In this document: positions 5,303 through 41,483 of the stretch, piece after piece
How positions within the stretch are numbered: position 1 is the stretch's first letter
Layout of the letters: every line of letters begins with the position of its first letter
Program-made: the position numbers and the translations under genes
Assembly: GCF_030863805.1 (NCBI RefSeq)
Contig: NZ_CP132957.1
Coordinates: 3,596,001-3,660,000 of the forward strand
DNA: 64,000 bases
Direction: 5' to 3'
Source: Kineothrix sp. MB12-C1
Lineage (GTDB): Bacteria > Bacillota > Clostridia > Lachnospirales > Lachnospiraceae
The notes under the pieces: generated by a model
What the model saw: only the letters and a program-made list of their open reading frames with translations
What the model was told of the DNA's origin: nothing
Database searches by the model: none

Positions 5303-5308
5303 ATTATT

Positions 5309-5490
5309 AACCTGAAATGTTCGACAACTCTTGTTATTTTGAACCTACAGATACTTTAAACGGGATTCCTACATCATCTTATAGCTGTCAAGCCCCCACT
5401 CGCAAGAGGATTGGAGGGGAAGGCAAAAGTAAGGTTGCGGTCACCCACCTAGCATTGCTAGGAGTCAAAGTACAAGAATCGGCATTTTGG
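5309..5490 (+). ncRNA. ssrS: 6S RNA (SsrS), regulator of sigma-70-type RNA polymerase
   Basis: An intergenic, non-coding segment of about 180 nt with its own promoter and a following terminator. The two ends pair: AACTCTTGTTATTTTGA (from 5326) with TCAAAGTACAAGAATCGG (to about 5482), the long closing stem expected of 6S RNA. Between them are blocks I associate with clostridial 6S RNAs: TTTAAACGGGATTCC, GCTGTCAAGC and GCGGTCACCCACCTAGC. 6S RNA mimics an open promoter and binds housekeeping RNA polymerase in stationary phase. Identification rests on remembered family features and structure, not a covariance search; another structured RNA is possible. Confidence 0.72.
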
Positions 5491-5515
5491 GGATAAATGT
5501 AGGATTCTACGAATG

Positions 5516-9129: not shown

Positions 9130-9441
9130 CAGTTAATTAGAGTGGTTGTAATAAAATAACAGTAGAAATGCTATGAAGGTGTTAGTAGAGTTACATTTTC
9201 TGTCAGAGAGAGGAAGTCATCGGCTGAAAGCTTCCCCCAGTTCAAATGTCACTTGAGATTCCCACCGGAGCAGCCTCATGAACAGCTATCTGTGATTGCC
9301 GTAGCAATCGAGATGGAAGTAGTGAAGGACGTTAATCACGCGTTATGTGAGAAGAGAGTCTGTGTTAACAGGAATTCGGGTGGTACCGCGGAATAATTTC
9401 GTCCCTGACATTACATTTAGTAGTGTTTGGGGACGTTTTTT
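9130..9441 (+). promoter_or_regulatory. T-box riboswitch leader (probable tRNA-Phe sensor) for pheST
   Basis: The invariant T-box sequence GGGTGGTACCGCGG is at 9378-9391, followed by a terminator (CGTCCC from 9400, GGGGACG then T6 ending 9441). An alternative pairing of the T-box would form the antiterminator. Stem I features upstream include AGAGAGGAAG...GGCTGAAAGCTTCC (about 9206-9235), the distal recognition arm. A TTC codon at 9241-9243, in the stem I 3' side, is a candidate specifier for Phe. Uncharged tRNA-Phe would promote read-through into pheS. The specifier position is inferred from context; the T-box class is certain from sequence. Confidence 0.93.
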
Positions 9442-10626: not shown

Positions 10627-10802
10627 ATGATACCTACGGATTGCTACGCACTTTGTGCTCTCGCAATCCCAACCCTAACTCAAGTTAGGGTACAACATTC
10701 GAAATCTGCCCTATTCGGGCTACTTTCTCATGTTTTGCGGGTCACAAAGTCATGTTTTCTCATGCAAGCATGAGACATATGATCTTTTGACCCTAGTATC
10801 AT
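10627..10802 (+). repeat. 176-bp repeat element with terminal inverted repeats, copy 2
   Basis: Second copy of the element at 902-1056. It starts ATGATACC (10627) and ends GTATCAT (10796-10802). Shared internal blocks include CCTACGGATTGCT, GCCCTATTCGGGCTACTTTC and the terminal hairpin, here with mismatches between arms. It is about 21 bp longer than copy 1 because of a small insertion containing the palindrome CCCTAACTCAAGTTAGGG. It separates pheS from pheT, ending 20 bp before the pheT start, so it must be transcribed with the operon. Confidence 0.78.
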
Positions 10803-39834: not shown

Positions 39835-40401
39835 ATGAAGAGTAAAGAGGATAAGATACGGCCGGAAGACCGCGAAGAACTGTTTAAAGTATGGAAATCC
39901 CGATTTGAGAAAAATAAGCACCGCCATAGGGACATATTATGGGAAGATGTGCAAAAGAAATTGGAAAACAACGAAGGAAAGCTATGGTCGCTGGAACAAA
40001 TGGAGGTGACCGGAGGTGAACCCGACGTTGTTGGATACGATGAGAAAACAGATGAGTATATCTTCTATGATTGTGCGGCAGAAAGCCCTAAGGAACGCAG
40101 AAGTCTTTGTTATGACCGCAGAGCATTGGACTCCCGCAAACAGGCGAAGCCGGCAAGCAGCGTTATGGATATGGCGCAGACCATGGGCATTGAACTGCTA
40201 ACGGAAGAAGAATACCGGGAACTGCAAAAGCTTGGTAAATTCGATCAAAAGACATCCAGCTGGGTAAAGACGCCGGATAATATTCGAGAACTGGGCGGTG
40301 CGATTTTCTGTGATTATCGCTATGGTACTGTCTTCGTTTATCATAACGGAGCTGAAAGCTACTACTCATCTAGAGGATTTCGAGGCGTATTGAAAGTATA
40401 A
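39835..40401 (+). CDS. DUF4256 family protein
   Basis: A 188-residue cytosolic protein matching the DUF4256 family. I recognise the conserved run FEKNKHRHRDILWEDVQKKL, the GGEPDVVGYDEKTDEYIFYD segment, SPKERRSLCYDR, MGIELLTEEEYR and YHNGAESYYSSRGFRG. The family has no established function. ATG 39835 follows AGAGGGG at good spacing; codons upstream in the frame (from 39769) are unlike the family. Upstream is ACCACC-C-GGTGGT (39783-39795) and TATAAT, a possible separate promoter. The stop TAA (40399-40401) lies in a repeat. Confidence 0.85.
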   Translation: MKSKEDKIRPEDREELFKVWKSRFEKNKHRHRDILWEDVQKKLENNEGKLWSLEQMEVTGGEPDVVGYDEKTDEYIFYDCAAESPKERRSLCYDRRALDSRKQAKPASSVMDMAQTMGIELLTEEEYRELQKLGKFDQKTSSWVKTPDNIRELGGAIFCDYRYGTVFVYHNGAESYYSSRGFRGVLKV

Positions 40402-40483: not shown

Positions 40484-40515
40484 AAAACAACCATCTGACA
40501 AAAAGTAACGAATAA

Positions 40516-40556
40516 CGACTCCCGGCATAAATTAATTAAAAAGCCGGGAGCGTTTT
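40516..40556 (+). promoter_or_regulatory. Hairpin covering the ribosome binding site of the subtilase gene
   Basis: CTCCCGGC (40519-40526) pairs with GCCGGGAG (40543-40550), extended by AACG with CGTT across one bulged base. The right arm contains GGGAG, the only plausible ribosome binding site for ATG 40557. It could be a terminator for upstream transcription (CG then T4) or a switch that hides the ribosome binding site. Confidence 0.6.
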
Positions 40557-41483
40557 ATGTTTCGGGTAAGACAACAGGTAGGTTGTACGGATGAATTAGT
40601 CGCCTCCTGCAACTGCAGAAATAGTGAAGATAATATCAGGGTGGCGGTACTTGATACAGGAATTGGGAATCATCCCGATTTTGAAGGTAGAGTGGACGCC
40701 TTTTATGATTTTCTGCATGGGGGAAGGAACGCCTACGATGATAGCGGCCATGGAACCCATGTGATTGGATGTATCGGAGGAAGCGGGAAGGCTTCCGGTG
40801 GGATGTACAAGGGAATTGCTCCCCATTGCCGCCTGGTAGTAGGAAAAGTTCTGGATGAGAACGGTGATGGCAATATAGATCATATGAAACAGGGGATTGA
40901 GTGGGTTCTGGATATTAAGGATAGATATAAGATAAGAGTGCTGAATATCTCCATTGGTATCGGATATATAGACAATAAAAATAGGATGGAGGAATTGGTG
41001 CGCGCAGTGGATGAAGCGTGGGACAGCGGCATTGTAGTGGTGTGTGCTGCGGGCAATATGGGGCCTAAGCCTATGACGATATCCCCGCTTGGGGCAAGTA
41101 AGAAGGTCATTACAGTAGGATGTCATGAAGGTGGTTATTTTGGAAAAAGGAGTTCTCTGTGCGAAGAATATTCAGGGAGAGGACCGTCGCCTTATGCGGT
41201 GAAGAAACCGGATGTGGTAGCTCCCGGAACAGATATTATTTCCTGTAATGTAGCTTGTCGCCAGTCATTTCGCGGTTACCGGAATGCTTATACGAAGAAG
41301 AGCGGTACATCGATGGCGACGCCGATTGTTTCGGGTGCAGTAGCCTTGCTCTTACAAAAGTATCCGTATCTTACGAATGAACAGGTAAAACGGAAACTCA
41401 GTTATAGTGCAACGGACTTGCAGGAGCCGTGGACGAAGCAAGGATGGGGCATGATAAATGTAAGAAGAATGCTTGCTCCCTGA
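40557..41483 (+). CDS. Subtilisin-family (S8) serine protease, probably intracellular
   Basis: A 308-residue subtilase with the full catalytic set: Asp33 (VLDTGIG), His65 (SGHGTHV), oxyanion Asn167 (AAGNMG) and Ser252 (GTSMATP). No signal peptide and no long propeptide (about 26 residues ahead of the domain), which resembles intracellular serine proteases. Several Cys residues (10, 18, 20, 72, 91) are unusual for the group. ATG 40557 is preceded by GGGAG embedded in a hairpin. A role in protein turnover or regulated proteolysis is inference. It is followed by the promoter of the next operon. Confidence 0.93.
   Translation: MFRVRQQVGCTDELVASCNCRNSEDNIRVAVLDTGIGNHPDFEGRVDAFYDFLHGGRNAYDDSGHGTHVIGCIGGSGKASGGMYKGIAPHCRLVVGKVLDENGDGNIDHMKQGIEWVLDIKDRYKIRVLNISIGIGYIDNKNRMEELVRAVDEAWDSGIVVVCAAGNMGPKPMTISPLGASKKVITVGCHEGGYFGKRSSLCEEYSGRGPSPYAVKKPDVVAPGTDIISCNVACRQSFRGYRNAYTKKSGTSMATPIVSGAVALLLQKYPYLTNEQVKRKLSYSATDLQEPWTKQGWGMINVRRMLAP

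Follow-up and report, generated by a model that had tools for sequence, protein, structure and literature searches.

The Shine-Dalgarno (SD) sequence of a gene encoding an S8-family subtilase in Kineothrix sp. MB12-C1 lies in the 3' arm of a G+C-rich hairpin whose loop carries a candidate mother-cell promoter, and we consider it likely that this hairpin acts as a one-way insulator with a nested developmental promoter, which would guard the protease from read-through. The gene was studied in a window of 64,000 nucleotides of contig NZ_CP132957.1, to which the coordinates below refer unless another contig position is given. The anatomy of the hairpin is well supported; its function is inferred from the comparisons set out here.

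The left (5') arm comprises AACG (40514-40517), a bulged or unpaired A (40518) and CTCCCGGC (40519-40526). It is followed by the 16-nt A+T loop ATAAATTAATTAAAAA (40527-40542), later used as a search pattern in the genus, and by the right (3') arm, i.e. GCCGGGAG (40543-40550) with its extension CGTT, ending at 40554. All of these elements are read on the + strand, and both arms are defined by sequence, fold and covariation. The core stem CTCCCGGC/GCCGGGAG has 8 bp, 7 of them G-C, and is thus as G+C-rich as the stem of an intrinsic terminator. An SD search placed GGAG, the protease's only SD, at 40547-40550 (+) within the right arm; the sequence CGTTTT (40551-40556, +) leads from there to the ATG at 40557, which stands two bases past CGTT and is preceded by four T. 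This start is well placed, as 15/15 orthologues from the genus align from residue 1. In a fold of 40500-40600 the hairpin has a minimum free energy of -26.4 kcal/mol (z -3.59), equalled by 0/200 dinucleotide shuffles. Sequence and fold thus confirm what the sequence-only reading had claimed at the outset, namely that the SD is locked in an 8-bp GC-rich stem extended by AACG/CGTT. At 40500-40600 there is no Rfam match above the gathering score, which rules out a described Rfam element such as a riboswitch or leader. Four matches occur elsewhere in the window: two Clostridiales-1 RNAs (903-1055 and 10628-10801, - strand), 6S RNA (5306-5497, +) and a T-box leader (9164-9409, +).

The protease (40557-41483, + strand, 308 aa) matches Pfam Peptidase_S8 with residues 25-298 (E 6e-51), shows no signal peptide by eye, and has subtilisin-like serine proteases as its nearest solved chains. 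Judging from its distribution it is linked to sporulation, since its presence follows that of spoIVA: among 250 genomes of the family, searched for the protease (E <= 1e-60) and for spoIVA (TIGR02836), 135 have both, 6 only the protease, 26 only spoIVA and 83 neither. G013 (96% complete), the sole genus genome that yielded no protease, keeps spoIVA and a sigma-K-like gene, and the protease may therefore be dispensable for sporulation.

Sixteen genomes, the window's included, were treated as Kineothrix, the nearest named relative being Kineothrix alysoides KNHs209, whose protease is 86% identical. The protease was found in 15 of the 16, and the hairpin stands directly 5' of it in 14 of these 15 orthologues; that of Kineothrix alysoides (L002/L185) is identical to the window's. 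The loop ATAAATTAATTAAAAA is unchanged in 11 of the 14 hairpin-bearing members and differs by one base in the other three, and in 7 of the 14 the stem grows to 13-14 bp, reaching within two bases of the AUG. The one genus orthologue without a left arm (L005) retains the right arm only and comes from a 65%-complete assembly, so that the loss is possibly a contig artefact. Searched with up to three mismatches, the loop with its closing pairs occurs as a single copy per genome in 14/16 genus genomes, which rules out a mobile repeat. For the chance expectation, a 464-kb sample of this genome was used, made up of the window and 20 stretches of 20 kb each. Among its 311 ORFs bearing an SD of at least 4 matches, the 8-bp stem, at -14.7 kcal/mol, comes second, and only two stems lie at or below -12 kcal/mol. 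The conservation in the genus, rather than these chance statistics, is the stronger evidence for the hairpin.

The loop is where we place the promoter. The nine-letter consensus of the sigma-K -10 element is CATANNNTA, and the window carries CATAAATTA at 40526-40534 (+), which takes in the final left-arm base and then the first half of the loop. A sigma-K-type -10 element running from the top of the left arm into the loop is present in 14/14 hairpin-bearing genus orthologues; the variants CATAATTTA and CATAGATTA vary at the N positions of CATANNNTA only, and GGC-ATAAATTA, GGC-ATAATTTA and GGC-ATAGATTA all fit it. At the usual distance from a -10 element, transcription is predicted to start in the A run just 5' of the right arm (40538-40542, +), and this zone is A-rich across 38 distinct hairpin loci. 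The predicted -35 element is the AC of GTAAC at 40508-40509 (+), 16 nt 5' of CATA, and the left arm falls in the spacer between the two elements. In Clostridium difficile, sigma-K promoters have a -10 element like CATATAAT, a sequence taken from one promoter, and at the -35 position AC marks sigma-K and ATA marks sigma-E (PMC3789822). The window thus has the AC of sigma-K, within the 16-17 nt spacing, and not the ATA of sigma-E. The AC column was not selected for in the comparison of loci: among the 38 distinct hairpin loci the -35 position has C in 33, and AC stands at the 16-nt spacer in 24 and at 17 nt in 4, together 28, while AC at 16 nt is also found in 20/54 loci without a hairpin. The assignment of the predicted promoter to sigma-K and not to sigma-E is drawn from this -35 element only. 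A match to the sigma-K family at or below 1e-82 was obtained in 15/16 genus genomes and one of only 1.5e-23 in the 81%-complete G014, all 16 lying below the NCBIfam cut-off. As control genes for sigma-K, yabG gave no match in 16/16 genus genomes, and dpaA gave matches in the genus that are all below the cut-off, with no usable promoter found.

The co-occurrence of box and stem extends beyond the genus. The set comprised 155 orthologues, 15 from the genus and 140 from other genera, of which 154 were used in the SD-hairpin scoring (the start of L181 was not found), and 22 of 43 further relatives' loci were added, 16 being duplicates and L215, L217, L223, L224 and L226 having no placed start; L215 shows the hairpin by eye. 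In the 155 orthologues CATANNNTA peaks 21-40 nt 5' of the expected start, with 43 occurrences in this bin versus 0-5 for five control patterns. It lies within 150 nt of the start in 102/176 upstream regions, and a stem at or below -8 kcal/mol closes round it in 44 of the 176, against 0-1 when any of seven permuted motifs is used. The looser motif [AG]ATANNNTA gave 74 and 2 in these counts; a similar box without a hairpin is thus found in many relatives. One locus, L209, is missing from the 44 because a mismatch interrupts its stem. Of the twelve strong stems, L112 and L149 lack CATANNNTA between the arms; both are very stable SD hairpins, with a -10-like box in an arm or beside a tiny loop. 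Six relatives (L208, L209, L213, L214, L216 and L227) have the promoter-bearing hairpin at a greater distance 5' of the start; in L208, L216 and L227 hairpin and promoter are kept at 39-63 nt 5' of the start, and hence the SD is outside and not locked.

A promoter in the loop implies that the protease's own mRNA should start past the left arm and lack the hairpin, which read-through RNA can form. The predicted accessibility of the start differs accordingly between the two RNAs: in the window, opening the SD/AUG region costs 19.5 kcal/mol when both arms are present and 10.3 kcal/mol in the predicted own transcript, and the medians for 23 of the 44 hairpin loci are 20.7 kcal/mol in read-through RNA and 6.8 kcal/mol in own RNA, next to 6.6 kcal/mol at 131 loci without a hairpin. 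Occlusion of SD and AUG in both-arm transcripts, as known from phage T4, is therefore predicted here, and the computed cost upholds the earlier claim that the hairpin strongly limits translation of such RNA. A start 3' of the left arm, which the sequence-only reading had named as refuting its claim, is just what the promoter predicts for the protease's own mRNA; such a start does not leave the hairpin idle, since read-through RNA would still form it. We propose the following course of events. During sporulation, the mother-cell RNA polymerase would start 3' of the left arm, at about 40538-40542, and would yield a short-leader mRNA with a free SD that can be translated. RNA from the upstream gene, with both arms present, would fold and occlude SD and AUG; a T6-T7 tract, where relatives have one, would in addition terminate it. 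In vegetative cells the protease would thereby stay silent irrespective of the activity of the neighbouring gene. In Kineothrix the insulation is probably mainly translational, given the short T tract and the 13-14-bp stems in half of the species.

The main idea of the sequence-only reading, that the protease's own mRNA starts 5' of the left arm and that its SD is opened by heat or by an RNA-binding protein, appears very unlikely to us. It can draw on the very strong and conserved occlusion of the SD and on the conserved loop, which could serve as a protein site. However, the -10 box explains the conservation of the loop, whose variable positions are the N of CATANNNTA, and the arm sequence is not conserved beyond the genus. 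Heating lowers the opening cost in the window merely from 19.5 kcal/mol at 37 C to 16.2 kcal/mol at 50 C and 10.9 kcal/mol at 70 C; the structure is thus not marginally stable near growth temperature, and an RNA thermometer was rejected. Opening by temperature, one of the options then considered, is disfavoured by these values; a protein opener is not needed, although one could still take part; and the putative sigma-K-type -10 element common to the hairpin-bearing genus orthologues favours the third option, in which the transcript begins within the loop. Taken as a whole, that interpretation is partly supported, with its loop-start alternative preferred. In another explanation a dimeric regulator of the mother cell would straddle the promoter, with the inverted repeat as its operator in double-stranded DNA, and the near-perfect dyad centred on the -10 region in the genus is what such an operator would look like. 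Outside the genus, however, the arms differ (CTCCCAGC/GCTGGGGG, GCCCTGAC/GTCAGGGC, CTTTTTACT/AGTAAAAAG, CTTCTGAGC/GCTTAGGAG), and these half sites change across genera with their complementarity kept and with G-U pairs among them. In 28 distinct arm pairs, own partners pair at 9.79/10 positions and swapped partners at 7.29 (0/10000 permutations; kinship not removed). When 27 of the 44 hairpin loci are aligned, 92.6% of the cells are paired, versus at most 62.4% after sliding. In these 27 loci, kinship again not removed, changes on both sides affect 23 cells, compared with a shuffle mean of 6.9 (0/500) and at most 13 when slid, and 6 pairs carry double changes, compared with a shuffle mean of 3.4, reached by 12/500 shuffles, and at most 5 when slid. 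The loop varies from 8 to 21 nt, and many relatives have added a T tract. Sequence comparison indicates that the stem is maintained through base pairing and that the sequence of its arms is not conserved from one genus to another; on this ground the operator was rejected, and we give it hardly any chance.

The most serious competitor is that the hairpin is a mere intrinsic terminator of the upstream gene, the overlap with promoter and SD being a by-product of compact spacing; we consider this unlikely. In its favour, the stem is followed by 6 or 7 T in 21 of the 30 hairpin loci outside Kineothrix (by 4 or 5 in the other 9), three relatives have their hairpin away from the SD, and the upstream ORF is co-directional in 42/44 hairpin loci, as judged from mechanical ORFs. 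On the other hand, the longest T run is only 3-4 in the 14 Kineothrix loci versus a median of 6 (range 4-7) in the 30 others (tail score p 1e-6), yet in Kineothrix loop and arms are nearly invariant, and L047 keeps the hairpin behind a divergent upstream ORF. The tail of the window hairpin, CGTTTTATG, lacks the U tract of an intrinsic terminator, and weak termination there could still occur. The early suggestion that the hairpin may stop transcription accordingly fits the relatives with T6-T7 better than the window with its four T. The Kineothrix protease hairpin may have shifted from termination to translational locking. A mechanical terminator scan takes loops of 3-8 nt only and therefore could not list this 16-nt-loop hairpin; with this restriction on loop length, it reports three terminator-like sites near the upstream gene, all on the - strand.

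That upstream gene encodes a DUF4256 protein (39835-40401, + strand; Pfam PF14066, E 3e-90), is co-directional with the protease and ends 155 bases 5' of its ATG; in the window it lies between a leucine-rich-repeat protein gene and the protease. The upstream gene is not constant in the genus: by eye, 11 of the 14 hairpin-bearing loci have an upstream ORF whose end resembles that of the window's leucine-rich-repeat protein, and the remaining three (the window, L002 and L011) do not. The window hairpin has thus stayed with the protease though its neighbour is not the usual repeat-protein gene, which also speaks against a mere terminator. The upstream proteins of L009 (genus) and L197 (another genus), the two tested, are of the BspA-type leucine-rich-repeat kind, that of L009 being LRR_5, and many upstream proteins outside the genus carry, by eye, a PDTGD motif followed by a membrane-like stretch at their end. 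The direction of the upstream gene, taken from mechanical ORFs of at least 60 aa in one locus per genus, is related to the presence of the stem: SD hairpins at or below -12 kcal/mol occur in 11/68 co-directional and 1/70 divergent loci (Fisher p 0.0019; kinship not removed), those at a cut-off of -8 in 17/68 and 3/70 (p 0.0005, likewise one locus per genus), and with upstream ORFs of at least 150 aa the counts are 10/50 and 1/46 (p 0.006). The exception is L047, with a divergent upstream ORF yet a strong stem. As 57/68 co-directional loci have no stem at or below -12, the insulation must be regarded as optional.

The same arrangement was met, unplanned, at spoIVA, which had been read as a promoter control, with its -10 box taken as CATANNNT and, in loci of other families, also AATANNNT. 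Starts could be placed in 14/16 Kineothrix and 17/20 family loci. The Kineothrix spoIVA loci (L268-L282, and L283 in this genome, in the region of G000:C1:3902306) show, for example, AGTTCCCC ... CATATATT ... GGGGAACT-TTTTTT-ATG, and an SD hairpin (p <= 0.05) is found in 12 of the 14 readable loci, all 12 with the CATANNNT box between the arms; in Kineothrix and other Lachnospiraceae genera these spoIVA hairpins often have a T tail. The locus L276, whose upstream gene (AraC family) is the only divergent one among the 14, lacks a real stem (-3.6), and L274, with a co-directional upstream gene, has only a weak one (-6.9, p 0.08). In this genome tyrS (TIGR00234) ends 73 nt 5' of spoIVA. Twenty further loci of the family (L338-L357), from 161 genomes with a match, were chosen as ten among the best scores and ten from genera inspected for the protease; all 17 readable ones have a co-directional upstream ORF, 13 have a hairpin and 10 have the box between its arms. 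Across 21 distinct pairs, spoIVA arms pair with their own partners at 7.81/8 positions versus 4.82 when swapped (0/10000 permutations, kinship not removed). In other families, represented by the best 30 of 139 genomes with a match (12 families, starts from match coordinates), a hairpin was found in only 2/30 loci, 1 of them with the box between the arms; the arrangement therefore looks like a trait of Lachnospiraceae and is not created by the method.

A search of the genome for the pattern of SD, T5 and ATG returned 47 distinct places, 26 of them with an ORF of at least 50 aa, and the most stable hairpin of these 26 stands 5' of yabP (TIGR02892), with a CATATAAT box between the arms (L299 1462-1512 in G000:C1, start near 2142396). 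At 13 Kineothrix yabP loci the hairpin occurs in 6 and the box lies between the arms in 3 of these, i.e. the arrangement varies within the genus. In the 464-kb sample, 21 stems at or below -8 close round the 1720 CATANNNT sites, versus 6-18 for eight control motifs, and only at the window's own hairpin does such a stem stand with both a T run and the start of an ORF (controls 0-1). No other gene with the nested design was found in this sample, and the design is hence not a general one. We see about an even chance that a broader proposal is correct, according to which Lachnospiraceae insulate a part of the mother-cell programme, comprising at least spoIVA, yabP and the S8 protease, by placing a sigma-E or sigma-K promoter in a terminator-like, SD-locking hairpin. 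Housekeeping read-through, such as that from tyrS ahead of spoIVA, would be terminated and/or untranslatable, the developmental mRNA would be unlocked, and the protease copy of Kineothrix would by now be an almost purely translational lock.

Several known systems share elements of this design. In IS10-type fold-back inhibition and in lacI-lacZ read-through hairpins, only RNA entering from outside has its SD locked by the inverted repeat; unlike the protease hairpin, these cases have no developmental promoters, and we know of no fusion with a terminator in either. The hairpins described here resemble intrinsic (Rho-independent) terminators in their G+C-rich stem and in the T6-T7 run of most non-Kineothrix hairpin loci, and differ from them by the promoter in the loop, the SD in the 3' arm and, in Kineothrix, a tract of T3-T4 only. 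They share the CATATAAT-like -10 and the -35 AC with the sigma-K promoters of C. difficile (PMC3789822), and unlike these they lie within a hairpin and have their sigma dependence predicted from sequence. The closest parallel is found in phage T4 (PMC3014915), where the longer early transcripts of gene e are locked, while transcripts from the late promoter, which lack the 5' part of the hairpin, are translated well, and where late promoters need another sigma factor. As in T4 e, soc, 49 and I-TevI, SD and AUG would be occluded in read-through RNA, and a nested promoter would supply the unlocked mRNA. Unlike in T4, the arrangement resides on a bacterial chromosome, involves a predicted endospore mother-cell promoter, occurs in many genera of one family and is often fused with a terminator-like T tract in relatives; moreover, the T4 mechanism is experimental, whereas that of the protease hairpin is predicted. 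Among the listed titles and abstract openings of open-licence papers, no report was found of a sporulation gene whose promoter is nested in a terminator or SD hairpin, which is weak evidence of absence.

Developmental genes have permanently active genes as neighbours. To the testable question of how spore formers prevent read-through from producing potentially harmful developmental proteins, e.g. an intracellular subtilisin, the nested promoter, terminator and SD lock would, if true, give an answer in about 45 bp. Some of the "terminators" 5' of Lachnospiraceae sporulation genes would then double as promoters, and the nested hairpin suggests a compact design for leak-proof promoters. The design may extend to vegetative promoters, as at the PHP-domain gene of locus L310 (G000:C1:3297301), where an 11-bp stem contains the SD and its loop a TATAAT-like box. 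Near the contig start (G000:C1:5607-7068), this genome also contains another spoIVA-like stretch, which is degenerate and interrupted by many stops.
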